Below are positions 5,576 to 48,343 of a stretch of DNA of 64,000 nucleotides, in pieces; within the stretch, counting starts at the first letter, position 1; each line of letters starts with the position of its first letter. Source of the stretch: Photobacterium sp. TY1-4 (GTDB lineage Bacteria; Pseudomonadota; Gammaproteobacteria; Enterobacterales; Vibrionaceae); assembly GCF_025398175.1 (NCBI RefSeq), contig NZ_CP099735.1, forward strand, positions 1,488,001 through 1,552,000. Reading direction: 5' to 3'. The translations under genes and the position numbers were made by a program. The notes beneath the pieces are model-generated. The model was not told the DNA's origin. It saw only the letters and a program-made list of their open reading frames with translations, and did not search any database.

Positions 5576-6247
5576 TTACAGGCTGGCCCAGTCCTGATGC
5601 TTCTTGAGATGGGTTTCTAACGTCCGGCCGAGCTTGGTGAGCAGCCAGGACAACATGAAATAGGTCGCGCCGATCACCGGCCAGACGATAAACGGCTGCC
5701 AGGTGCGCTGATTCAGGATCTGCCCGACTTTGGTGATGTCCATGACGCCAATCACCGAGATCAGCGAGGTGACCTGAAGCTGGTTCACCGCCAGCCCGAC
5801 CAAAGGTGCAATCGCCACTAGCAAGGCTTGCGGGGTAATGATCTTGGCGAGGACTTTCCACTCGCTCAGGCCGAATGAGCGCGCCGCTTCCACTTGCCCC
5901 TTATCGATGGAGGCCAGGGCGGAAACCACAATTACGGAGATGAAGGCCGCGGTATTGCCGGACAGGGTGATCACCGCTGCTTCCGTCGCGGTCATATCGA
6001 CCCCCAGCAAAATGGGCAGGCCGAAGTAGATCAAGAACAGCTGCACCAGCACCGGGGAGTTTTTCAGAAACTCGCTGGTAAAGGTCGCGGCATGTCCCAG
6101 CCCAGGCACCTGATAATGGCGCGTGAGCGCGAGCAGCGTTCCCAGCACCGCGCCGATCAGGCTGGAGATCAGAAACACCTGCAGGGACACGCCGATGCCG
6201 CTGAGCAAGACGATGAAATCGTAGGGTACGAATGCGTTATTCGACAC
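5576..6247 (-). CDS. Polar amino-acid ABC transporter permease
   Basis: Inner-membrane permease of the HisM/GlnP family, 223 residues with about five membrane helices. The EAA loop, which docks onto the ATPase, is visible as QVEAARSFGLSEWKVLAKIITPQAL around residues 135-160. The N-terminus FIVLLSGIGVSLQVFLISSLIGAVLG is the usual first helix pair. It lies 2 bases downstream of the second permease gene and 3 bases upstream of the ATPase gene, so the heterodimeric permease and ATPase are made together. Confidence 0.93.
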   Translation of the reverse strand: MSNNAFVPYDFIVLLSGIGVSLQVFLISSLIGAVLGTLLALTRHYQVPGLGHAATFTSEFLKNSPVLVQLFLIYFGLPILLGVDMTATEAAVITLSGNTAAFISVIVVSALASIDKGQVEAARSFGLSEWKVLAKIITPQALLVAIAPLVGLAVNQLQVTSLISVIGVMDITKVGQILNQRTWQPFIVWPVIGATYFMLSWLLTKLGRTLETHLKKHQDWASL

Positions 6248-6249
6248 GG

Positions 6250-6915
6250 TTAATCCTCCAGGACAAATTGTTTGTTCAAACGGGCGTGCAGGCGTGAAAT
6301 GGCCAGCGACAGGATGTAAGTCAGCACGCAGTAAAACAGCAGCAGCAAGAAATAGACTTCAAAGGGCCGGAAGGTTTCTGCGGCAATGATCTTGGCGGTG
6401 CCGGTGAGCTCATTCAGCGTGACCGTCGAGAGAATGGAAGTCGTCAGGATCAGGTTGATAAAAATCGACCCCAGCGGGCGAATGGCGTTGCGCAGTGCGA
6501 TGGGCAAGATCACTTTCTGGTAGATCACCCGGCGCTTGAGGCCAAACGACTGGGCGGCTTCAATCACGTCTTTGTCCACCTGCAGCACACTGGCCCGCAG
6601 CACATCGGCGCAGTAGGCCCCGACGGCGAGTGACAGGGCAATTACGCCGGTGGTGTAGGGGTCGATGAAAATCCCGAGTTCAGGCAAGCCGTAGAAAATG
6701 AAAAAGACCTGAACGATAAACGGAATATTGCGGAAACAGTTGATGTATCCGTTGCCGAATCGGCTCTGCCACGGATGGCGGCTGACACAGGCAAACATGA
6801 CGGCCAGGCCGACGCCAAAGCTGCCGAGAATCGCCAGAGAGCTGACCGTTGCGGTGATGATAAACCCGTCGGTAAAGGACCCGAAATATTGCGAGATGAT
6901 ACTGAGATCAAACAT
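6250..6915 (-). CDS. Polar amino-acid ABC transporter permease (second subunit)
   Basis: HisM/GlnP family permease, 221 residues from the chosen start. The EAA loop reads DVIEAAQSFGLKRRVIYQKVILPIALRNAIRP, followed by the last two helices. I chose the ATG at 6915 (MFDLSIISQYFGSF). It aligns with the family N-terminus and is preceded by GGATGGCGG. The frame extends upstream to a TTG at 6987 (24 more residues), but that segment is proline/lysine rich and unlike the family. It is the first gene of the minus-strand importer operon; its promoter should lie between 6916 and about 7290. Confidence 0.9.
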   Translation of the reverse strand: MFDLSIISQYFGSFTDGFIITATVSSLAILGSFGVGLAVMFACVSRHPWQSRFGNGYINCFRNIPFIVQVFFIFYGLPELGIFIDPYTTGVIALSLAVGAYCADVLRASVLQVDKDVIEAAQSFGLKRRVIYQKVILPIALRNAIRPLGSIFINLILTTSILSTVTLNELTGTAKIIAAETFRPFEVYFLLLLFYCVLTYILSLAISRLHARLNKQFVLED

Positions 6916-7114
6916 AAAACCGCCATCCAGTTGCAAAAGTGAAACCGATTTCACTTTAGGCGGTGATGGCTTATTCGCAATGTACAAAATAAGAATTTGC
7001 TATCTGGATCGGCTCAATTGAATGAAACAACGGTGTGTGTGCATAAAAAGATGTCGGGAAGGACTAACTTTTCATCATCGTGGATACTCTTGGATCGAAA
7101 TATGCTTTATGCCG

Positions 7115-7170
7115 CAAAACACAAAACACAAAACACAAAACACAAAACACAAAGCACAAGGAACAAGCAC
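7115..7170. repeat. 7-bp tandem repeat, about 8 copies
   Basis: Five exact copies of CAAAACA followed by three degenerate ones (CAAAGCA, CAAGGAA, CAAGCAC). It lies in the 375-base gap between the first importer permease and the LysR gene, where no gene is supported. A 7-bp unit is not a multiple of 3, and copy-number change would alter promoter spacing for the permease operon if the promoter spans it. No other feature was seen in the gap. Confidence 0.9.
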
Positions 7171-7291
7171 ATTTGGCGAGAAAAGTGGCGCATGAGGACG
7201 AATGGTGGCGTATCAAGGTACATGGTTTCCGTCACAGCGCCGGCTTCGCGCAAACGCTGGGGGATGTGACGGTTGAGCCGGTGCGAATTCC

Positions 7292-8209
7292 TTAGCTCTG
7301 AAGCTGCGCTTCAAAAATTTCCGGCATGGATTTGGCGGCGTTTTTGATCGACTCGGTAAAGCTGTGGAGCGATTTATGATGCCGGGTGTTGGTCGGGTAG
7401 GCGAGGTTATAGGGGTAGTAAATCGCCGGTTCAAATGGGCGGGTGACGACGCCGTTGGCGGCCCATACCCGGGCGGCGAACGGCTCCAGGACGCCGACGG
7501 CCAGCCCGGCGGCGATCATCGAATAGCCAGTGTGCGAGGTGTCGATAAACAGCTGCTTGCTGACCTTGGTTTCAACCGGCTCCAGCGCCTGGCCCAGTTT
7601 ACTCCAGTAGGTCGGGTTGGAATCGAGGACAGTGAGCACCGACTCCCCGATCAGATCTTCGGCCGTGATGACGCTTTTTCGGGTCAGCGGGTGGTCATGA
7701 CGGGCGGCGAAAACAAAACGCGCATTGCCGATAAATTCCTGCTCAATGCCGCTTAATTGCGGCAGTTGCAGCCCCACGGCCAGATCGACCGAGTTGGTTT
7801 GCAGCTTCATGACGATTTCCGCCATGCCGTCGGTGTGCACCACGATCCGCTCGTTTGGAAAATATTTCTTATGCTCGCTGAGCGCCAGCGGGAGCAGGGT
7901 GCTGGCAATTGCCGAGGTGCTGGCAATTTTGAGCTCTTTCGGCGCCCGGGTCCGGATATGGGCCGCTACTGATTGCAGCTTTTCCAACCCTAAAAAACTC
8001 TCCTCCACCGAGCGGAAAAACTCGGCTGCTTCGTGGGTCGGGTGCAGGCGTCCCTTGCGCCGTTCAAACAGCAAGAAACCGAGCGAGTGCTCCAGATCAC
8101 TGATGAGTCGGCTGACCGCGGGTTGGGTGACGTGCATTTCCGCAGCGGCGGCGGCGGTGGTCCCGCGTAACATGATGTAGCGGAAGGCTTCAATCTGTCG
8201 AAATTTCAT
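7292..8209 (-). CDS. LysR family transcriptional regulator
   Basis: LysR-type regulator, 305 residues from the chosen ATG at 8209 (MKFRQIEAFRYIMLRG). The N-terminal winged helix includes TAAAAAEMHVTQPAVSRLISDLE, a standard LTTR recognition helix. The remainder is the two-lobe effector domain. The frame extends 15 codons upstream to a GTG at 8254, but MKFRQIEAF is the family-typical N-terminus. It is divergent from the dipeptide ABC operon beginning at 8476 and stands upstream, in the same direction, of the amino-acid importer operon. It is therefore the natural regulator of one or both. A 17-bp repeat array covers its start region and probably its promoter. Confidence 0.92.
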   Translation of the reverse strand: MKFRQIEAFRYIMLRGTTAAAAAEMHVTQPAVSRLISDLEHSLGFLLFERRKGRLHPTHEAAEFFRSVEESFLGLEKLQSVAAHIRTRAPKELKIASTSAIASTLLPLALSEHKKYFPNERIVVHTDGMAEIVMKLQTNSVDLAVGLQLPQLSGIEQEFIGNARFVFAARHDHPLTRKSVITAEDLIGESVLTVLDSNPTYWSKLGQALEPVETKVSKQLFIDTSHTGYSMIAAGLAVGVLEPFAARVWAANGVVTRPFEPAIYYPYNLAYPTNTRHHKSLHSFTESIKNAAKSMPEIFEAQLQS

Positions 8210-8305
8210 GGGTTGTCCATAACAAGTGCTAAGCCGTAACAAGTGTTTATTCACAGCAAGTGCTTATCCATCCCAAATGTTCATCCATAACATTTGTTTA
8301 TCGAC
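8204..8305. repeat. 17-bp tandem array at the lysR start / divergent promoter region
   Basis: Five units begin at exactly 17-base intervals: 8221, 8238, 8255, 8272 and 8289. The consensus is AACAAGTGTTTATCCAT, with 1 to 6 mismatches per unit. A weaker sixth unit at 8204 keeps the TCCAT end and overlaps the LysR start codon. The array lies between the LysR gene and the divergent dipeptide-transport operon. Iterated operator sites or a replication-slippage array are both possible. I know of no standard LysR operator that recurs at 17 bp. Confidence 0.8.
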
Positions 8306-8475
8306 CATGCCTGAATATAAGTGGATGGTATTACATTTAGTTTACATGATGGACTTAGTTACACAATGCTCAGGAGACATCCCTCCCTGAGTTTCAGCCG
8401 TGGTTTCCTGTCATGCACGGAGGTGTGAAGGAGCCAATTTGCAGCCCAATGTACTGTCAGCACAAGGATGAACAC

Positions 8476-26879: not shown

Positions 26880-28466
26880 TTAAAATGCCCAGTTTGCAGA
26901 AGCCCCGAAAATTGGTTTTGCCCAATTGTCGGCGTCGGAACCTGCGATTGTCGCCCGAAGCGCCACACTTTCGCTCATATTATGGGTTGTCCCAATGGCA
27001 AGCGCAGAGGAACCGTTATAGTGCCCCATGCCGACGGAGATCACAGTATCACCTTGATAGCGCGGGGTGATCATTGAGCCGACCGCCGTCGACGCAGCAA
27101 TGGCGCCATCTAAGCGTTTGACTTCACTGTAGAGGTCCTGGACCTGAAACTCAATTTTCCGGATACGCTTGGTGTTATCGCTGATACGTGCATCGTGATC
27201 GGCTGTAGTTTCGTATAACGCATTGATATCTGAGACGTTGTTGGCAATTTCAGTCGATGCCGCTGTAATCTGTTGCTCCAACTGCTGATCTGCAGTTTTA
27301 CGTTCATTGCTTTCTGATGTGATTGCAGTGTTATTTGCAGCGATTTCACTGTTTGCTGTTGCGATAGCATCGGTGTTGGCTTTGATTACAGTGTTTGCGG
27401 CCGTAATCGCATCAGCGTTGGTGCTGATTTTATCGGTGTTGGCATTGATCGCAGTGTTTGCCGTCGTGATGGCATCGGTATTCGCGCTGATTGCAGTGTT
27501 CGCCGTTGTGATGGCATCGGTATTCGCGCTGATTGCGGTGTTTGCAGCCGTAATCGCATGAGCATTGGTGCTGATTTTATTGGTGTTGGCACTGATCACA
27601 GTGTTCGCTGTCGTGATGGCATCGGTGTTGGTACTGATTGCCGTGTTTGTAGCCGTAATCGCATCAGCGTTGGTGCTGATTTTATTGGTGTTGGCACTGA
27701 TCGCAATGTTTGCCGTCGTGATGGCACCGGAGTTGGCTTTGATTGCCGTGTTGGCAGCCGTAATCGCATCAGCGTTGGTACTGATTGCGGTGTTTGCAGC
27801 CGTAATCGCATGAGCGTTGGTACTGATTTTATCGGTGTTGGCACTGATCGCCGTGTTTGCCGTCGTGATGGCATCGGTATTCGCGCTGATTGCCGTGTTC
27901 GCCGTCGTGATGGCATCAGCGTTGGTGCTGATTTTATCGGTGTTGGCACTGATCGCAATGTTTGCCGTCGTGATGGCATCGGTATTCGCGCTGATTGCAG
28001 CGTTAGCCGTTGTGATGGCATTGGTGTTGGCGTTGATTGTAGTGTTCGCCGTCGTGATGGCATTGGTATTGGCGCTGATTGTAGTGTTCGCCGTCGTGAT
28101 GGCATTGGTATTGGCGTTAATGGTGTTGGTAGCAGAATAAATGGCGTTCGTGTTCTGATTTACCGATGTTTTTGTCTGGTTAACAGTCGTGCTTAGCGAG
28201 GAAATTCTATTTTGGTTTTACTTGGCTTTTGATTGTGCCATCCCGACACCGCCGGTGAGTTTTTGGATCTGTGTTTCTGAAGAGGCATTCTTCATTTCAT
28301 CCTGCGTGTAAATAAAGTAAGTATTCGCTTCACCTTCATAGTTCCCTCCAGAGGTGTTCACCTCTCCCCATCCGCGGTTATCATCCGTAAATCCGTCGTA
28401 GTGGCCTGCCATGGCAGGGAGAGTAAATACCGAAGCGATGAGTGAAGCTACAACTGTCTTTTTCAC
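26880..28466 (-). pseudogene. Trimeric autotransporter adhesin (YadA-like), single in-frame stop
   Basis: One frame of 528 codons runs from ATG 28466 to the stop at 26880, broken only by a TAA at 28218-28220. It starts with a signal peptide (MKKTVVASLIASVFTLPAMA) and a short Tyr/Gly-rich head. After the TAA come about 19 repeats of a 14-residue unit (AISANTDAITTANT type), two heptads with Ile and Asn core positions, as in trimeric coiled-coil stalks. A stalk neck (QQLEQQITAASTEIANNVSD) follows. The C-terminal roughly 75 residues form the YadA-type membrane anchor, ending in GASANWAF with the terminal Phe expected of an outer-membrane barrel. No start codon exists between the TAA and GTG 27599. 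Without readthrough, only an 82-residue secreted fragment is made. Confidence 0.85.
27330..28135. repeat. 42-bp coding repeats of the adhesin stalk
   Basis: About 19 tandem units of 42 bp (14 codons). They differ mostly by single bases, some of them near-identical over long stretches (for example 27840-27930). The high identity makes this a recombination hotspot and an assembly risk. The repeat also produces long spurious frames on the plus strand. Confidence 0.85.
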
Positions 28467-40769: not shown

Positions 40770-41368
40770 ATCACCCCTAGATTTCCGTAGCTTGAGCCCT
40801 AAGTTACTGGAACTGAAAGTTGAATGCGAACATATCTTTTGGTATGGCGCCAGAGAATGGATTGAAGCGACACTGCAATCATGAGTCGTTAAATTCAAAA
40901 AAAATTGAAGAATGTATATAAATTTTAAACTTGTGGTTATTGAACCATGAGCGTGTGATTTGCCCTTCAGGCGAGAAATAGGCTTACAGCTGAGTTTTGG
41001 TTGTTTTTTATATTAATGATTTTTAAGGTTTTATTGATTTTCCATTGCTGGATGTTCAACATAGTGTATCCGGCTGCCTTTCGGTAGGCTTCACTATCGG
41101 CTTAGAGCTGAACTTAGGTGTACGAAATAGCGCTTAAATTTCGCACCATGATCAAAAATATCTTTATTTATTCAAAATTATTTGATCTTATCAAAATGTG
41201 TGATAAATTAGCCCCAGATTTGAGCAACTCGAATCCCCGAACATTGCAATGGCCAGGTAACGGAGGCGGTTGCATTCCTGGCGATGCACTTCATGGTTAT
41301 TACAGTGCAGCGTCAGCGCGCTGGCGAGCCAGCAACCCTGCTTGGAACACAGGGTTTAAACGGAACGG
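40770..41368. other. Long intergenic region with possible small RNA
   Basis: The left half is AT-rich and without a gene. The right part (about 41215-41368) is GC-richer, has several small inverted repeats, and leads straight into a strong terminator with no gene upstream to account for it. An open frame on the plus strand (41118-41453) runs through that terminator and is not credible. Confidence 0.4.
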
Positions 41369-41404
41369 AAAACGGCCCAGGGCATCTGCTCTGGGCCGTT
41401 TTTT
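41369..41404. terminator. Strong bidirectional terminator
   Basis: Stem AACGGCCCAGGGCA/TGCTCTGGGCCGTT (one mismatch pair near the loop), flanked by TTTTTT on the plus strand and TTTTCC on the minus strand. It could serve the GNAT gene on the minus strand and an unrecognised plus-strand transcript. Confidence 0.88.
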
Positions 41405-41410
41405 CATGGC

Positions 41411-41480
41411 TTGCTTTCGGGAGGCCCGAGTTGCTTTTGGGAGACCGGAGTAGCTTTGGGAGACCTGAGTAACTTTACTG
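41411..41480. repeat. 19-20 bp tandem repeat at the GNAT gene 3' end
   Basis: Units TTGCTTTCGGGAGGCCCGAG, TTGCTTTTGGGAGACCGGAG, TAGCTTTGGGAGACCTGAG and a partial TAACTTTACTGG start at 41411, 41431, 41451 and 41470. The last unit supplies the GNAT stop codon region. Confidence 0.8.
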
Positions 41481-41966
41481 GCTGGTTTCCAGCACGTAGT
41501 AATCAATTTCAGCTTGCGTGTGGTCATAGCCAAACCCGAGCTTCTCCAGCACCTTTTGAGACGCTGCGTTGACCGGATCAATCCCGGCAATGAATCGGGT
41601 CGTCTTATTTGATCCAGCCAGATGGTTGATCAGCCCCTGCATTGCTTCGGTGGCCAGTCCTTTCCCCCAGTAGGATTCGGCAATCACATAACCGATCCGG
41701 TATTGCGCCGCTTCTTCCGGAAATACGAACAAGTAACCTGCCACCTGATCGGTCGAACTTAATCGGACAATTGTGCCGATGCTGAGCCGGCTATCGAGCC
41801 ACTGCGCTACATCATCCTGCGTTTCCAGTTGGCTGCAGTCCGGCGGCAAATAGCGGCTGACCTTGTCGGTAAACAGGGTTCTGATTTCCAGGCCGAGTCC
41901 CGGTTGGGCTCTGTCCAGCGTTGCGGCTTGCAAGCGCTCAGTCTCAAAAACAATGGGTTCAAGCAT
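41475..41966 (-). CDS. GNAT family N-acetyltransferase (RimJ/RimL-like)
   Basis: 163-residue acetyltransferase. IGYVIAESYWGKGLATEAMQ is the acetyl-CoA binding motif A (the usual Q/R-x-x-G-x-G/A is here YWGKGLA). NAASQKVLEKLGFGY is the motif B region. The N-terminus ETERLQAATLD resembles RimJ-like enzymes that modify proteins or amino groups of small molecules. Substrate unknown. A tandem repeat abuts its 3' end. Confidence 0.88.
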   Translation of the reverse strand: MLEPIVFETERLQAATLDRAQPGLGLEIRTLFTDKVSRYLPPDCSQLETQDDVAQWLDSRLSIGTIVRLSSTDQVAGYLFVFPEEAAQYRIGYVIAESYWGKGLATEAMQGLINHLAGSNKTTRFIAGIDPVNAASQKVLEKLGFGYDHTQAEIDYYVLETSQ

Positions 41967-42054
41967 CTGTGGGGTTTCTCATTGGGGATCGAATTGGGGG
42001 AGTTTACCATTAATCCCGAATTGACCGAATAAGCTGCCTGCTTGTCCCGAGATC

Positions 42055-43350
42055 TTAATCCAACGCGCTGCAAACCCGGTTCCGGCCGGACGCTTTGGCG
42101 ACATACAGATACTTATCGGCTTCGGCCAGCGCGCGATCGATACTGCCGTCGAGTTTGGCGATGCCCATCGATACGGTGACCTGCGGGTCCAGCGGGGCTG
42201 ATTCGATACACTGGCGGATCCGGTTAAAAATTCTGTCGGCTTCGATCAGGGAATCCGCATTCAGGACCATCAGAAATTCTTCGCCGCCGTAGCGGAATAC
42301 AATGTCCTTCTTGCGGGCATTATCTTTTAGCAATTGGGAAATTTGTTTAATGATTTTATCGCCGGTGATATGGCCGAAGGTGTCATTGACGCTTTTGAAG
42401 TGGTCGATATCCAACAGGGCAACAAACTGATCAGGCTGGGCTTCGATCTTGCGCTTGTTGCGGTGCAGGTGTTTGCGGTTAAACAGTTGCGACAGTTCAT
42501 CAATCGAAGACTGGTAATGGGCCTGTTTTCGTTTGTTATTGATCTGATAAACGCTGAGCAGCAGCACCATCGCAAGAAATCCAATGATAATCATCAGAAA
42601 ATAGATCCGATCCACCAGACGGAAGCGATCGATAAACAGCATGTATAGGGTCTGGCCACCGGAAGTCATGATGCGGTATGAGATATTTTCGTTGCGGTAG
42701 AGATAGTAACCAGCCGACGCCTCGCTGGTTTTGAGCGTGTGCAGCAGCAACTTGTCGAGTTTGCCCTGATTTTCACGGTGGGAAAACAGCACGTTGCCCT
42801 GGCTGTCGGTGTTGACCACCATGACGTTGTTGTTCGGCACCGTCCAGAACTGCTCGCTGTTCACGGTGGCTACATAGTACAGCGGAATTTGGCGATCGGC
42901 TGACGTACGGATGAAATAACTGTTGCCGTTATCCGCGAGGGCGATATTGAACGGCTCTTCGCTGGCGTAGTGATCCCAGGCACCGATATTGAGCTTCATG
43001 TCGGCAACGAATGTGCGGTAGTGGGACGGGTCCAACACTTCAATACGGGTGATATTGCTCGACAGCGATTTGGGTAACGCGGCTGCGGCCTCGTTGGCAT
43101 CAAAGGTGGTGGCGGCTTGCTGCGCGATGAGCGCCAGCGCGGCTTCGATGGTCTGAATCCGTTGCAGATAAACCAACTCCACCAGTTCCAAATCTTCTGC
43201 CTGAGCGCGCAGCTTGTAATTGTCGATAAAATTTTTCGGGGTGGTGACCAGCAGGATAAACAACATGATCAGCAACGTGGCGGTCAGCTCTCCTTTGACC
43301 GGGGAGAAAAAAGCGAACAATCTCAAAACAATCCCTTTTTGATAATCCAT
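42055..43350 (-). CDS. Membrane diguanylate cyclase
   Basis: 431 residues from ATG 43350; the frame is open to a GTG at 43380. TM1 is LTATLLIMLFILLVTTPKN. An extracytoplasmic sensor of about 200 residues follows, with a Cache-like YYVATVNSEQFWTV...NVMVVNTDSQGNVLFSHREN. TM2 is IYFLMIIIGFLAMVLLLSV. The GGDEF domain has the active-site loop RYGGEEF and an inhibitory RKKD five residues before it. The protein should make c-di-GMP in response to a periplasmic ligand. The gap after the start (43351-43656) has no supported gene. Confidence 0.92.
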   Translation of the reverse strand: MDYQKGIVLRLFAFFSPVKGELTATLLIMLFILLVTTPKNFIDNYKLRAQAEDLELVELVYLQRIQTIEAALALIAQQAATTFDANEAAAALPKSLSSNITRIEVLDPSHYRTFVADMKLNIGAWDHYASEEPFNIALADNGNSYFIRTSADRQIPLYYVATVNSEQFWTVPNNNVMVVNTDSQGNVLFSHRENQGKLDKLLLHTLKTSEASAGYYLYRNENISYRIMTSGGQTLYMLFIDRFRLVDRIYFLMIIIGFLAMVLLLSVYQINNKRKQAHYQSSIDELSQLFNRKHLHRNKRKIEAQPDQFVALLDIDHFKSVNDTFGHITGDKIIKQISQLLKDNARKKDIVFRYGGEEFLMVLNADSLIEADRIFNRIRQCIESAPLDPQVTVSMGIAKLDGSIDRALAEADKYLYVAKASGRNRVCSALD

Positions 43351-43656
43351 GAGCACATCTCTTCGCAGGGGTAATGTCACGGTAATTCGGGATGTCGTTG
43401 CTAGGTGACGCGGTTAGCAGTTCTCCCTTTCCCCAGGTACATCGGCTTGAACGCATTTTCATGCCGAAGGTCACGCTTCAGCAGGCCGGTGTCGTCGAAA
43501 CGACGACCATTCAAATGCAGCGCGAGCACACTCTAACTGATGATTGTGACAAAATAATGATGAGTATTTTCAGATAATTACCGGAGAAGTCATGATGAGT
43601 TGAGCGCGTCGTCTGCGCGCTCAACATCGGATTGGGAGTGTGGTGGACAATGCCGG

Positions 43657-44649
43657 CTAAGTCGAGTGCGGATGATGCCGCCGGGCCTGCGGCCAGTAAA
43701 ATCCGATATATTTCCAGCTGACCCAAAAGACCAGTGTGGTCGCGACCATCAATTCGATCAGGGCCAGGGATTTGAGCCAGGTCCAGTGCGGATAGTCGAT
43801 CATCAGCCAGTCGGTCAGGCGTTCAATCGCCACGGCGCTGATAACCGACGGGAATGTCACGGCAGCCAGCGGCGGCTGGAACCTTTGGTTGAGCAGGTTG
43901 ATGTAGAACAGGTAGACCAGAATCGTCATGGTGATGGCCACCCCGGCCAGCGCCCCGGTCAGAACCGGATCAGGCTGCGTCACATTACTCAGATAGGCGG
44001 CCAGCGACAAATTGACCGGCGCGGCCATAATCGCCAGCGTCGGTCGGGCTGGTCGCGGCAGACGACCGGCAAAACAGAGCCGGTAAAGCACCACAGGCAA
44101 CATCATAAAGTAGATCGCGACACAGACATGGGTCATCAGCAAAGCGAATTCAGTGTGTCCGAGTTGCGGACCGGCGAGCGTGCCGCTGATGGCACCCACC
44201 GGGTACAGGAACCAGCTGGGATACAGATTGATCAATCGAAAGTTTTTGATTTGATGGAAAAAGAAGTACACCAGCATGAAGAAATGCAGGGCCATGGCCG
44301 GATACCAGAGTACACGCGCCACATGAAGGTGAATCGAGGAAAGATAGTCGGCCAGCACCAGCATGGTCATGGTCATCGGTGCCATCAGACTGCCGTACAG
44401 CGGGTGGCGCAGATCCAGCAGGAAATTGCGCGGAAACAGCAGATACTTGAGAATGACCGGCATCAGGAGGGCGGCCCCCAACACGGCGCAGACCCCCCGG
44501 ATCACATCGCCGCTGCCGGGCATAAACAGCGCCCACGCCAGGCCGATCCCTGTGGTCGACAGGGCCAGTGCCGCTTGCGCCGTGGGTACTTGTCTCAGCG
44601 TCCCTCTAAATCCCGCCATGAGTGTCTGATCGCTCCATATGTCATTCAA
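43657..44649 (-). CDS. TDT family transporter (TehA/SLAC1-like)
   Basis: 330-residue inner-membrane protein with about ten helices. The TDT family comprises TehA-type tellurite-resistance and C4-dicarboxylate carriers and SLAC1-type anion channels. Recognisable stretches are TTGIGLAWALFMPG, HPLYGSLMAPMTMTMLVLADYL, PSWFLYPVGAISGT and PRPARPTLAIMAAPVNLSLAAYL. The start ATG 44649 is possible, with a second at 44619. Anion or dicarboxylate/sulphite transport is the family range; the substrate is not readable. Confidence 0.87.
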   Translation of the reverse strand: MNDIWSDQTLMAGFRGTLRQVPTAQAALALSTTGIGLAWALFMPGSGDVIRGVCAVLGAALLMPVILKYLLFPRNFLLDLRHPLYGSLMAPMTMTMLVLADYLSSIHLHVARVLWYPAMALHFFMLVYFFFHQIKNFRLINLYPSWFLYPVGAISGTLAGPQLGHTEFALLMTHVCVAIYFMMLPVVLYRLCFAGRLPRPARPTLAIMAAPVNLSLAAYLSNVTQPDPVLTGALAGVAITMTILVYLFYINLLNQRFQPPLAAVTFPSVISAVAIERLTDWLMIDYPHWTWLKSLALIELMVATTLVFWVSWKYIGFYWPQARRHHPHST

Positions 44650-45280
44650 ATGTTAATGTAGCGTTGGATTCTACACCAAAGCGGTGGGGCCGTGCGCAGT
44701 TTTGCGAGTGAGATAACAGTGCGGGCGGTCACGTTTTGCGGAGCTTTTCATCAAAAATGGATTTGCCAAACGCAGCAATGCATACCATATTTATAAGGAA
44801 GCTTGTAATGAGCCGTTCTTGCTTAGCTCCTGGAGGATTCAGCTGATTTCAAAGGGCTCAAGGGTGCAAGTTTCCTGTTGGTGGTGGCGTGAGCCAACGC
44901 TGGCAGAGCGGAAAGCTAAGTCGTGAGACTTGGTGACTTACAATTTGGTTAAGTGACAAAAAGTGAAATTACTTCTTCGTCAAATGACACTAAAGTCCGA
45001 TTTAAAGAAGTGACTGCATCGGACTCGGCATACTCAACGTAATGAGTGGCGAAGCCTCAAGTAACAACGGCCTCGGATGTGCCCAAACGGTCAACTGAGG
45101 TGTTCATAAAACTTAATCCAAGCCGCACTGCAACGGTGCGGCTTTTTATGTGTGTCAGTGTATGTTTTTCTGTATTTTCCAAGCCTGTCAGAACCAGTGG
45201 ATTAAGGATCTTCTGTTTATTCTGAATCTATCAGATTTGCATCTCGGTATGGTCTCCCAGAACGCAGCCTTTAAAGCTGA
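44650..45280. other. Gene-free region with a terminator and possible non-coding transcript
   Basis: No plausible protein frame in 630 bases. Positions 44870-45110 hold several short inverted repeats (for example AAGTCCGA/TCGGACT around 44994-45033) and lead into a terminator at 45119. I compared it by eye with tmRNA, 6S, RNase P, c-di-GMP-I, glycine and cobalamin riboswitch signatures and found no match. It borders the phage-like islet. Confidence 0.4.
45119..45148 (+). terminator. Rho-independent terminator without an obvious gene
   Basis: Stem AAGCCGCAC/GTGCGGCTT with loop TGCAACG or smaller, followed by TTTATG. The preceding 450 bases hold no gene. Confidence 0.8.
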
Positions 45281-45418
45281 ATTCGTTGCGCACCTAATTT
45301 AAACCTAAACTCAGCCCAACCTCTATGGCCTGCGCACCCCAACACCCTGAGTTTCGAGCAGGTGGCGTTTGTGGATGAAGTGATAGAGGATGACCGCGCC
45401 GGGCAAGCTAGGAGCTAA
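45281..45418 (+). pseudogene. C-terminal fragment of an unidentified protein
   Basis: After an in-frame TGA (45278) the frame reads ...AQPLWPAHPNTLSFEQVAFV then DEVIEDDRAGQARS and a TAA at 45416. The composition is that of a real protein tail, and it stands five bases before the start of the zinc-finger gene, as if in a former operon. No start codon and no family recognised. A phage gene is suspected from the neighbour. Confidence 0.4.
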
Positions 45419-45422
45419 GGAT

Positions 45423-45629
45423 ATGAATACCGCAGAGAAAATGCCTGAGCGCTACGGTATGAAAGCCAGCGCGGCCAACGAGTTGCCCGTGAAAGAAGTG
45501 GTTTGCCAGTGTGGTCACCGGATCTGTGATAACGAAGGGGTGATCCGTTCCCGCTGTGTGAAGATTGTGGAAGGGGGGGCGCTGTGTCGCTGTAAGCGAT
45601 GGGTGGAAGTGCCGGTGGCTGGTTCGTAG
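45423..45629 (+). CDS. Small cysteine-rich (zinc-finger) protein, phage Com-like
   Basis: 68 residues from ATG 45423, with AAGG four bases upstream. Cysteines form a probable zinc site: VVCQCGHRIC, SRC, LCRCKRW. The size and Cys pattern recall phage Com-type (Mom translational activator) zinc fingers and small proteins of P2-like prophages. This is a resemblance only. It marks the left edge of an AT-rich accessory islet. Confidence 0.6.
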   Translation: MNTAEKMPERYGMKASAANELPVKEVVCQCGHRICDNEGVIRSRCVKIVEGGALCRCKRWVEVPVAGS

Positions 45630-45773
45630 CCGATAAAGTACGAACGGTAAACAGGGCATACTGTCAATAGATAGTGTGCCTTTTTTGTGAGATCTGTTGA
45701 CTATCGTTGGCTAAGTATGAATTAATACTAAAACTATTTTCGGAGCTGTTGATAATAATAATTAGGTGGTTTA

Positions 45774-46769
45774 GTGAATGTTGAAAAACTGAAAGATTAC
45801 TTTTACGTAAATATAGCATCTCTCTTTTGGACTTCTTTTTTGTTGGTTGGTGGTGGGGTTTTTATTTGGTATTTCTCTTATATTGAATATATGCCCGATT
45901 TTGATTTAAAGTCTTCTCTTACTATATTGTCTGCTGCATCAATAACGTCGATTATTATAATTGTGTTTTTTATTGCGGTTTTGATCTTTCCTGGTTCTTT
46001 TTGGTCTGATGTGTGGGCTAATAATTCATCGTTGAAAGAAAACTGGGAGGATGATAACGGTGAAAATGATTTATCTAAAACAGTACTTTGGTTCGGCCTT
46101 CCTGTTTTATATTGTTTCGGGCTCTGGGTTCTTATTATTTATGTCGGATTGGTGGCGTTTTTCTATGCTGCTGTAGGGGTGATATTGGCATTTTTAATAG
46201 TTCGACATAATTCAGAACTGTCAGGGTGGGAACTACGAAAACAGGTTGTTGGCTTTGTGTTGGTCTCTTTATTTTGTTCCTTTATGTCACTTTATCCGGC
46301 ATATTTAGTATTATCATTTGTTCATTCAGGTCTTCCCAAAACCAAGGAAGAAGGAGAGTTAATTTGGGTAGGAGTTGCTATATTTATTGCCTTTGCAAAT
46401 GTTGTTTTAACGGCAAAACCGAAGAATAGATATAGGGCAATATATTATTTATGGATAGGAGGTATAACTTTATTTGTTGTCTTCGACTCCTATAGCAAAA
46501 TGTATCGAATTCCTGAGCGTGTGATGGAAATATTTAAGTTTGGGGCTATCGATGCGAAGTCGTTGGTTGTGACGAAAGATTCATATGAGTTTTTAAAAAT
46601 CCAGGGGTTTGTAACTGGAGATAATTGTGAACAAGAAATATGCTTAATTTCAAATGTAAAAATATTATCTCGACTAGGAAAGGAAATGTATCTAGAGTCT
46701 GGTAAATTAAGATTCTCGATTAAGAATTCAGACGTGTTATCATGGTCAGTAGAAAAACCATCTAAATAA
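45774..46769 (+). CDS. Unrecognised seven-helix membrane protein with C-terminal soluble domain
   Basis: 331 residues, GTG start with AGGTGG 4-5 bases upstream. Hydrophobic segments: about 14-38, 50-75, 103-122, 124-143, 156-180, 193-212 and 222-240. The last 90 residues are soluble (KSLVVTKDSYEFLKIQGFVT, two Cys in GDNCEQEICL, then beta-type ILSRLGKEMYLESGKLRFSI). No family recognised. Codon use is AT-rich (many TTA, ATA, TAT), unlike the window average, which suggests recent acquisition. The next small gene starts 9 bases after the stop, so they form an operon. The layout (membrane part plus C-terminal domain, small partner) is compatible with a membrane-acting defence or addiction module, but there is no direct evidence. 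Confidence 0.75.
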   Translation: MNVEKLKDYFYVNIASLFWTSFLLVGGGVFIWYFSYIEYMPDFDLKSSLTILSAASITSIIIIVFFIAVLIFPGSFWSDVWANNSSLKENWEDDNGENDLSKTVLWFGLPVLYCFGLWVLIIYVGLVAFFYAAVGVILAFLIVRHNSELSGWELRKQVVGFVLVSLFCSFMSLYPAYLVLSFVHSGLPKTKEEGELIWVGVAIFIAFANVVLTAKPKNRYRAIYYLWIGGITLFVVFDSYSKMYRIPERVMEIFKFGAIDAKSLVVTKDSYEFLKIQGFVTGDNCEQEICLISNVKILSRLGKEMYLESGKLRFSIKNSDVLSWSVEKPSK

Positions 46770-46778
46770 GGTTCGTTT

Positions 46779-46940
46779 ATGGGAATATGCTCAAATCCTT
46801 TTGGTGCGATAAAGTTGAGCGGAGATGATGCCGCTCGCTTCGTGGAGCTGGTTAGAAAAAAGAAACTGAACCCACGTGCTGCGAGGACTTTACGGCGTGG
46901 CCGAGATGTATTGGCCAAGATGAGAGCAAAGCCTGAGTGA
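46779..46940 (+). CDS. Unrecognised 53-residue basic protein
   Basis: ATG 46779 to TGA 46938, 9 bases after the membrane-protein stop. The sequence begins MGICSNPFGAIKLSGDDAAR and continues FVELVRKKKLNPRAARTLRR, then GRDVLAKMRAKPE. It is strongly basic and probably two helices, compatible with nucleic-acid or protein binding. Its stop overlaps the stem of a terminator, so translation ends exactly at the transcript end. Codon use is less AT-rich than the preceding gene. No family recognised. Confidence 0.6.
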   Translation: MGICSNPFGAIKLSGDDAARFVELVRKKKLNPRAARTLRRGRDVLAKMRAKPE

Positions 46941-46956
46941 GAACTCAGGTTTTTTT
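46932..46956 (+). terminator. Terminator overlapping the small basic gene
   Basis: Stem CCTGAGT/ACTCAGG with GAGA loop, followed by seven T. The stop codon TGA lies in the stem/loop. Confidence 0.9.
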
Positions 46957-47000
46957 GCTCTAAATCCTCATACGACTTTAGTTGTATCTTGTTGTGAGTA

Positions 47001-47043
47001 TTGTTGCATTGTGCTAGCTTGATTATAAACTGTTCAGTAGGAG
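47001..47043 (+). promoter_or_regulatory. Candidate sigma-70 promoter and SD of the 197-residue gene
   Basis: -35 TTGTTG (47001-47006), 17-base spacer, -10 TATAAA (47024-47029), and SD AGGAG (47039-47043) five bases before the ATG. This would give a very short leader. It suggests that the gene has its own promoter separate from the membrane-protein operon. Confidence 0.45.
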
Positions 47044-47048
47044 CTGTT

Positions 47049-47642
47049 ATGCCAAGCATTTTCGTAAAAGAGTTTTCAGCCATTGCAACCCAAGGCGGGA
47101 CTAAGAAGCTAACTCTGATCAAAAGGCAAAAGAATAAAGGGCCATATCATCCAAGTTCCGATTATTACAAAAGCTTTCGAGAAAAAATCGTTGATATCAT
47201 TAAGAATCAAAAGCAGTTGAGTGAGCTGACAAAGTTACCGAAAACGTTAAATGATAAGAGAAAAACAAGTAATTATAGCCTTTTAGCTAAGAAATTTGTT
47301 GCTTGGGCTAAAGGTAAAAACATTCGTTGGCATGACCCGGTTAGGAATTCTTACCACTCAAATGTAACAGAGATTGTTTGTAACCCGGAGCTTAATGTTG
47401 TTATCGACGGGGTAGAACATATTATCAAGCTGTACTTTAGTGTTAATGAACCAATGACTAAAGAGCGAGCAAACTATATTTGCTACCTTATGCAATCTTG
47501 TATTGATATCAATACAGCAGTTTATGCTGTGTTGGATATCAATACGAGAAAGATGTACACATTTAGTGGTGATCCGACTGTTTTCTCGATTGCTGTTGAG
47601 TCAGAAATAGCTGCGTTTGAAAGAGCTTGGCAACAATTATAG
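47049..47642 (+). CDS. Unrecognised 197-residue soluble protein of the AT-rich islet
   Basis: ATG 47049 with AGGAG five bases upstream; an in-frame extension to 47001 is not needed. The N-terminal half is basic (TKKLTLIKRQKNKGPYHPSS, YYKSFREKIVDIIKNQKQ) and the C-terminal half mixed alpha/beta (VVIDGVEHIIKLYFSVNEPM, INTAVYAVLDINTRKMYTFS). No signal peptide or membrane helix. No family recognised. AT-rich codon use like the membrane protein at 45.8 kb. The basic N-terminus is compatible with nucleic-acid contact. A promoter candidate lies directly upstream. Confidence 0.75.
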   Translation: MPSIFVKEFSAIATQGGTKKLTLIKRQKNKGPYHPSSDYYKSFREKIVDIIKNQKQLSELTKLPKTLNDKRKTSNYSLLAKKFVAWAKGKNIRWHDPVRNSYHSNVTEIVCNPELNVVIDGVEHIIKLYFSVNEPMTKERANYICYLMQSCIDINTAVYAVLDINTRKMYTFSGDPTVFSIAVESEIAAFERAWQQL

Positions 47643-47851
47643 GAAATGATTTCTTGCCGGTGTAGCTGCGCCGGTATTTCTTATAAATCCAATCTAGACT
47701 CCTTGACATCCCCCAAATGGAACATTTAATTCTATCTACTGAATTGGTAGTTATTCAGGTTTCATTTGTGATTCCTCACTTGGCCCCCATCTCATTTGCT
47801 GTTTAAATTACCGAATCATATCGTTCATATTTTTTAGACCTGTAGGTGAGT

Positions 47852-48343
47852 ATGTTCCGCGTTGTTGATCAAGCCCTATTGGATGAGTTGTTGGCTCAGG
47901 CCCATCAAAGTCCCCGCAAACGGAGTCATTTGGCGTTTCATGCTGATTTTGAAGCGCCGGTGCAGCGGATGGTAATTGGTCTGGCGGCGGGCACTTATGT
48001 CAGGCCGCACATGCACCCGCAGACGAATAAATGGGAAATGCTGTTTCTGGTTCGGGGGAGCGTGCTGCTGCTGATGTTTGACCCGCAAGGTGTCGTGACG
48101 GAGCGAATTATATTCTCTGCAAACAATCAAACCTGTGGGATTGAGATGGCGCCCGGCACTTGGCATACCATTTTGCCGTTAGAAGGGGATGCGGCGATTC
48201 TGGAAGTCAAACAGGGGCCGTATGATCCTGCGGATGTCACCGCGTTCGCGGACTGGGCCCCGGCAGAGCAGGATGCTGAGTCTGATGACTTTCTTCGCTG
48301 GGCAGAGCTGGCGCAAGTCGGGGATAAATACAGCGCATCTTAG
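47852..48343 (+). CDS. WbuC-type cupin metalloprotein
   Basis: 163 residues from ATG 47852, where AGGTGAG gives a suitable SD; a GTG at 47846 is in frame. The cupin motif TYVRPHMHPQTNKWEMLFLVRGSVLLLMF carries the metal ligands (HxH, E), and the second motif is GIEMAPGTWHTILPL. Matches the WbuC family, often found in O-antigen gene clusters, with uncharacterised activity. Here it is isolated and borders the AT-rich islet. Convergent with the MBL hydrolase gene. Confidence 0.88.
   Translation: MFRVVDQALLDELLAQAHQSPRKRSHLAFHADFEAPVQRMVIGLAAGTYVRPHMHPQTNKWEMLFLVRGSVLLLMFDPQGVVTERIIFSANNQTCGIEMAPGTWHTILPLEGDAAILEVKQGPYDPADVTAFADWAPAEQDAESDDFLRWAELAQVGDKYSAS

Follow-up and report, generated by a model that had tools for sequence, protein, structure and literature searches.

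A prophage relic with two unclassified cargo genes at a conserved RNA terminator in Photobacterium sp. TY1-4

Where does a short block of unfamiliar genes in a bacterial chromosome come from, and what are such genes likely to do for their host? This question is raised by an islet at 45.15-47.72 kb of a 64,000-nt stretch of the Photobacterium sp. TY1-4 genome (contig NZ_CP099735.1; hereafter the window, within which all positions are given unless a contig is named). Behind a small gene that we call Com1, encoding a Com-like zinc finger, the islet carries genes for a 331-amino-acid (aa) membrane protein, a 53-aa basic protein and a 197-aa soluble protein. A preliminary description had read it as an AT-rich accessory block that adjoins phage debris of possibly P2-like kind and might hold a membrane-acting defence or addiction unit. 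Our analysis traces the islet to a prophage that had inserted into a conserved structured RNA, at its terminator, and of which nearly everything but the cargo slot has been lost. That the two long genes of this slot were kept as protection against other phages is a reading to which we lean, if only slightly.

A prophage relic at the terminator of a structured RNA

The closest relative with the locus, genome G142 (upstream transporter-like gene 93% identical), has an intact prophage of ~45 kb at the same spot, inside the terminator of the conserved RNA. Window positions 41152-45153 match its contig L054 up to base 8459, where the intact prophage starts, and an exact 27-bp direct repeat (L054 8433-8459 and L059 16439-16465) flanks the ~45 kb. 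The repeat is the 3' half of the RNA terminator, similarity stops precisely at its last base and a 387-aa integrase adjoins the right-hand copy. Similarity to the window resumes inside the G142 phage, at 95% for 45391-45616 and at 84.5% for 46799-46953. In the viral contig L012, the same sequence being present in genome G064, the order is head gene, Com1, a shortened 53-aa gene and a hairpin, followed by a toxin-antitoxin pair, a second hairpin and the 197-aa gene, and window 46929-47719 is 95.6% identical to this contig. The phage-derived accessory block that had been proposed is supported.

In the window only the left side of the cargo slot survives, the left and right prophage arms are gone and no further copy of the head gene was found in the genome. 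The startless protein tail of the preliminary description is the last part of the phage minor-head gene, with a tblastn match of 74% over 27 aa to L012. The intact counterpart of this gene matches head-morphogenesis families in PHROGs, and we take the gene to be Mu-F-like. The term P2-like held in part. Families of a contractile tail were matched in the intact relative only (sheath, tape measure and baseplate: phrog_23, 973, 4226, 48 and 52), but PHROGs assigned the portal and head genes of this relative to families of head morphogenesis (phrog_19480/104 and phrog_1657/4728/115), which we would likewise call Mu-F-like.

Islet and prophage are both missing at the site in genome G139 (L072), where the RNA terminator is followed after ~0.2 kb by genes that start at window 48454 (79.9% identity over 4.3 kb). 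The region is thus absent as a block in one relative, although its right limit lies at ~48.45 kb, beyond the preliminary estimate, and takes in a DUF6016 gene. Of the 24 loci compared, L072 alone shares the right flank within the fetched stretches; in six others similarity picks up again near window 61-63 kb, which makes the right side of the locus variable as well.

The landing site has an interest of its own, being a near genus-wide, unclassified structured RNA. Its 121-nt core was present in 25/25 genus sequences tried and a covariance model of the core found 50 of 52 genus genomes, with one match each, the two misses being 74% and 85% complete. The core has a three-way junction with compensatory changes at three base pairs, one of them in a single sequence only. 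No Rfam family matched above its gathering score, and the sub-threshold matches to SNOR75 (other strand, 22.4 vs 50 bits) and RAGATH-28 (12.0 vs 45.3) were taken as chance; a candidate pseudoknot was dropped as by eye it does not hold on distant aligned sequences. Eight genomes of other genera match the model weakly. In G274, G324 and G325, three genomes of another genus, the weak matches (~33 bits, ~90 nt) number 5, 10 and 8, and a repeated element akin to one part of the RNA may thus be present there.

The earlier gene calls and spacing were borne out, the 53-aa frame beginning 9 bases after the 331-aa frame (Table 1), and the start of the 197-aa gene at 47049 is backed by relatives with the same initial methionine. 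A terminator-like hairpin does follow the 53-aa gene, and in total the region holds seven terminator-like sites in 2.75 kb compared with 2.0 ± 1.6 in shuffled sequences. The separate promoter proposed for the 197-aa gene was not recovered (nine promoter-like sites vs 6.9 ± 2.4 expected, none on the forward strand just upstream). The leader of this gene is conserved in L012. Upstream of it lies an imperfect 18-bp inverted repeat (46970-46987; identical at L012 7922-7939), a possible operator.

The islet is AT-rich in its two long genes, with a guanine plus cytosine (GC) content of 0.34 for the 331-aa and 0.37 for the 197-aa gene, but not in the 53-aa gene (0.50; window 0.54). Codon use deviates in these three genes (-0.48 for the 331-aa, -0.46 for the 53-aa and -0.34 for the 197-aa gene, against -0.11 to 0.45 for the reference window genes, on a scale built from the same 26 hand-picked window genes that serve as comparison), but Com1 is host-like at 0.23. 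Com1 has a ratio of nonsynonymous to synonymous substitution rates (dN/dS) of 0.20. Its resemblance to Com stands, but the family is unmatched in Pfam (window protein and two L012 proteins), NCBIfam (window protein) and PHROGs; the Com family after which it is named is presumably that of phage Mu. Far from the islet, at 26880-27599 on the reverse strand, an open reading frame (ORF) encodes repeats of A-N-T-D type, like a coiled-coil or fibre protein.

Table 1 Features of the islet and its borders, in window positions
Feature	Position	Strand	Remarks
Conserved structured non-coding RNA with terminator	44740..45150 (approx.; core 44940-45060)	+	3' end is the prophage attachment site
attL equivalent (3' half of RNA terminator)	45127..45153	+	G142 similarity ends at 45153 = L054 8459
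Decayed tail of phage minor-head gene	45258..45406	+	blastn pieces to L012 head gene, with internal loss
Com1, Com-like CxC...CxC zinc-finger gene, 68 aa	45423..45629	+	91% aa identity to L054 18462-18665
Terminator-like hairpin behind Com1, ahead of membrane gene	45653..45682	+	
Seven-helix membrane protein, 331 aa; small beta domain at C-terminus, predicted to be periplasmic	45774..46769	+	between Com1 and 53-aa gene
53-aa basic phage gene	46779..46940	+	75% over 53 aa at L054 18675-18833
Terminator-like hairpin over 53-aa gene stop	46928..46953	+	closely similar hairpins after L012 cargo units
197-aa soluble cargo protein	47049..47642	+	prophage copy at L012 8001-8591 is 98% identical in aa
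Terminator-like hairpin after 197-aa gene	47655..47676	+	L012 similarity ends at 47719
DUF6016 (PF19480) gene	47846..48343	+	within block absent from G139; host-like codon use, not phage-like

The cargo slot in related prophages

A search with the G142 head protein gave nine viral contigs, and 13 of the 329 genomes of the family also matched. After removal of duplicates (L084 = L014 = L012; L107 = L082; L108 = L083), whose identity was checked on the overlapping stretches of L012/L014, L082/L107 and L083/L108, 18 non-redundant slots were readable. L061, a second degenerate slot of G064, was left out and L106, which ends just past the minor-head gene gpF, yielded no slot, while L115 and L116 were kept despite incomplete head genes. 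ORFs of at least 50 aa were listed for each slot. PADLOC scans covered a choice of 26 cargo proteins and a further ten from the cargo and the neighbourhood of locus L015, and Pfam scans covered ten plus ten proteins. Matches to PDC-S31, PDC-S05 and GajB could not be assigned to a slot and were not counted.

The slot lies between the minor-head gene and a protease. A Com-like gene opens it after gpF in 18/18 cases and the protease stands at its far end in 16, L083 and L089 running to contig ends. Nine of the slots contain a second small ORF, in seven of them with a second Com-like gene. GC content within the slots is 0.36-0.44 vs 0.56 for the stretch from terminase to head gene in G142, and the occupants vary from one related prophage to the next.

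Defence cargo had been expected at such positions, and recognised families do occur in the slots of related prophages. The membrane nuclease PD-lambda-1/SNIPE is found in 3/18 (two members matched by PADLOC, that of L058 with E 6.7e-179, and a third copy at 64% identity), putAbiC in two (E 1.9e-28; second copy 68% identical), SocA_Panacea and DUF2971 in one each and ParE-like toxins in seven (E 1.7e-33). In the fetched stretches all eight ParE and all three PD-lambda-1 matches, duplicate L084 included, lie between head gene and protease. Defence or toxin-antitoxin families were recognised in 11 of the 18 slots (seven if ParE-like toxins are left aside).

The two occupants of the slot in the window are unclassified. 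What was an anonymous AT-rich patch becomes a defined cargo slot that can be mined. Read from where the Com-like gene ends to where the protease begins, the slots of relatives give PD-lambda-1/SNIPE, putAbiC and toxin-antitoxin modules, and the unknown occupants thereby become ranked candidate immune proteins.

Two further contents of these regions deserve mention. The degenerate slot of G064 (L061 12669-15315) consists of a Com-like gene, a putAbiC relative (58-63% to L082 and L083) and a protease fragment. An unknown pair of 206-aa and 334-aa proteins (86-97% identity) is shared by the second half of the slots of G064 (L012 9415-11827) and G052 (L082 9445-11003), and in G064 it adjoins a 237-aa membrane protein that has no PADLOC match.

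The islet proteins and their relatives

The 331-aa protein has, as had been described, seven hydrophobic segments and a soluble tail, of 91 residues. Its AlphaFold model (predicted local distance difference test score, pLDDT, 74) shows seven long helices and a C-terminal beta domain. When the helix limits of the window protein are applied to the other members, loop charges fit an arrangement with the N-terminus inside and the C-terminus outside in 13/13 of the family. Cysteines occur in the C-terminal domain at aligned position 271 in 12/13 members and at position 290 in 13/13, two conserved positions that would fit a periplasmic domain.

The family is rare, as a search of 5.8 billion proteins, sensitive only to relatives sharing short words, returned 15 members including the window protein itself. 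Genome contigs gave seven loci, and among 150 sampled family genomes only the window's own carries the gene; plasmids gave no match for this or the 197-aa protein. In the Halomonas/Vreelandella loci L008-L010 the membrane gene stands directly behind an integrase-like gene, in L008, L010 and L011 it stands ahead of mobilisation and transfer-type genes and in L006 (Aeromonas) between a transposase-like gene and topoisomerase-like genes, the gene names in L008-L011 being read from the sequence and unscored. In a deltaproteobacterial metagenome-assembled genome (MAG) an attC-like inverted sequence was seen, by eye only, right behind the membrane-family gene (L005 8980-9060). The C-terminal tails of members P0013 and P0021 resemble translation running on into attC, and a similar sequence stands in the 3' flank of L005; these unscored likenesses were not accepted as proof of integron cassettes in the membrane family.

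Since Com1 and the 53-aa gene adjoin in G142, the membrane gene of the window is an insert of ~1.1 kb between them. This bears directly on the proposal that the membrane protein and its small neighbour form a two-gene addiction or defence unit, which the shared strand and the 9-bp spacing had made attractive. In G142 the 53-aa gene (75% identity) starts three bases after the Com-like gene with no membrane gene present, and the shortened copy in L012 likewise lacks one. At the seven other membrane-family loci (L005-L011) we found no relative of the 53-aa gene and no common downstream ORF of at least 25 aa, only the closely related L010 and L011 sharing short frames. A protein search with the 53-aa ORF returned nothing and among viral contigs only that of L012 matched. 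With Com1 and the 53-aa gene as direct neighbours in G142 and no membrane gene there, we reject the unit, whose existence we hold to be highly improbable. The addiction version finds no support, and the pair is not inherited together as a type II toxin-antitoxin unit would be. On its placement, the 53-aa protein is judged to belong to the phage and not to be a partner. A presumed likeness to DUF1778 antitoxin tails was set aside.

The 197-aa gene differs between the window and L012 by 11 synonymous and three nonsynonymous changes (dN/dS 0.066), which as a sequence measure indicates that it is under purifying constraint between the window and the prophage copy. In 16 aligned sequences of its family E114 and K127 are invariant, and named relatives occur in Vibrio diabolicus and V. 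vulnificus. Direct repeats of ~123 bp, not scored with an attC model, stand on both sides of the relatives in L016 (71%) and L018 (89%) and none were found in L017, L019 and L020, giving two positives among five tested relatives from a second genus. An integron integrase over the cut-off lies 29 kb from the L016 relative on the same contig (genome G196); in G214 the integrase is on another contig. Beside the two window genes no attC-like site was seen by eye, no attC model being applied. At L015 (G125), ~1.2 kb from another relative, genes at 5996-8454 resemble an ABC-three-component system (PF20275, PDC-M68B).

Weighing the explanations against known systems

The origin of the islet, its site, the position of the slot, one empty site and the intact frames are established. 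The prophage entered the RNA terminator and afterwards lost almost all but a slot running from minor-head gene to protease, which a Com-like gene opens and which in half of the cases a second small gene or gene pair divides. In the mechanism that we propose the cargo would have been retained to protect against other phages. The 331-aa protein probably works on its own at the inner membrane, where its predicted periplasmic beta domain could disturb the entry of superinfecting DNA in the manner of P22 SieA; exclusion at DNA entry is a working mechanism by analogy with SieA and with the SNIPE found in the slot, and a membrane-acting defence role, as first suggested, is plausible for this protein. 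The 197-aa protein is probably cytosolic and may be a nuclease-like effector or a nucleic-acid-binding protein. Most likely the two cargo genes would provide single-gene anti-phage functions, one by membrane exclusion and one as a nuclease-like effector with an incomplete motif. A bolder version would make both of them new single-gene anti-phage systems common to integron-like arrays, conjugative elements and prophages, namely an exclusion protein of seven helices that bears a small barrel on its periplasmic side and an effector of PD-(D/E)XK-like type whose active site is rearranged, with paired Com-like genes as homologous anchors for cargo swaps; this we consider unlikely.

Several observations weigh against a protective role for the two genes. 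Neither cargo family rises above a Pfam or NCBIfam cut-off and the best PADLOC match has E 0.41. The membrane gene was found in none of the 18 slots and in no viral contig, and the 197-aa gene in one slot. In seven of the 18 slots the proteins scanned include no member of a recognised defence or toxin-antitoxin family, some occupants such as Rha are not defence genes and the count of 11 refers to slot genes alone. Of the two conserved cysteines, that at 271 is absent from the window protein. The 197-aa protein has a poor model (pLDDT 52) and a PD-(D/E)XK-like fold that could be assigned with low confidence only. In 16/16 sequences I, V or L replaces the acid of the D/E-x-K motif, two residues ahead of the catalytic Lys.

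The same relic and slot might instead carry ordinary lysogenic-conversion cargo for stress, transport or bacteriocin immunity, with no anti-phage role. That neither gene matches a defence family and that slots also contain Rha and unknown proteins would fit such cargo, as would the unrelated settings of the membrane family, among them a deltaproteobacterial MAG and an Aeromonas locus with topoisomerase-like genes alongside. Against it stand the defence or toxin-antitoxin families of 11/18 slots and the members of both families that lie beside integrases or in integron-like repeats, and we regard it as rather unlikely, though less so than any other alternative to protection raised here. The genes might otherwise now be without function, carried as passengers in a relic that is decaying, as the broken head gene, the loss of both prophage arms and the want of another head-gene copy in the genome would allow. 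Yet the frames of Com1, the 53-aa, the membrane and the 197-aa gene are intact while the head gene is broken, and the low dN/dS of the 197-aa gene speaks for constraint, although this may partly date from other lineages; we give passengers little credence. The 197-aa protein could also be a non-nuclease nucleic-acid-binding regulator in place of an effector. The absent acid of the motif and the imperfect inverted repeat upstream in both window and L012 point that way, and we think this doubtful. Protection against other phages is the reading we retain for the two genes.

How does this slot compare with what has been described? Our literature search, which covered titles and the openings of abstracts, found no published account of a slot between minor-head gene and protease. 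Tested anti-phage genes occur among the integron cassettes of Vibrio, at least 16 of 179 and 9 of 57 (Darracq et al. 2025 and Getz et al., both as cited in PMC12409362). The islet resembles them in that 197-aa relatives lie between attC-like repeats in two of five second-genus genomes, and differs in that its own genes show no attC-like site by eye. Prophage defence hotspots are already known, the one in Vibrionaceae lying between cI and the integrase of K139-like phage (PMC9122126). Common to them and to our slot is one fixed place in the prophage with interchangeable cargo that includes known anti-phage systems, whereas the window slot runs from minor-head gene to protease, belongs to another prophage family and has one or two Com-like genes. 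Incoming phage DNA is cut by PD-lambda-1, the membrane nuclease also called SNIPE (PMC13190303). It is a membrane-anchored anti-phage protein from the same slot in 3/18 relatives, but has one helix with DUF4041 and GIY-YIG domains, in contrast to the seven helices of the window protein, in which no nuclease domain was recognised. P22 SieA (PMC10883804), at 162-164 aa and with three predicted helices, is smaller, but as a prophage-encoded inner-membrane protein that needs no partner it offers a working model for the 331-aa protein of the islet.

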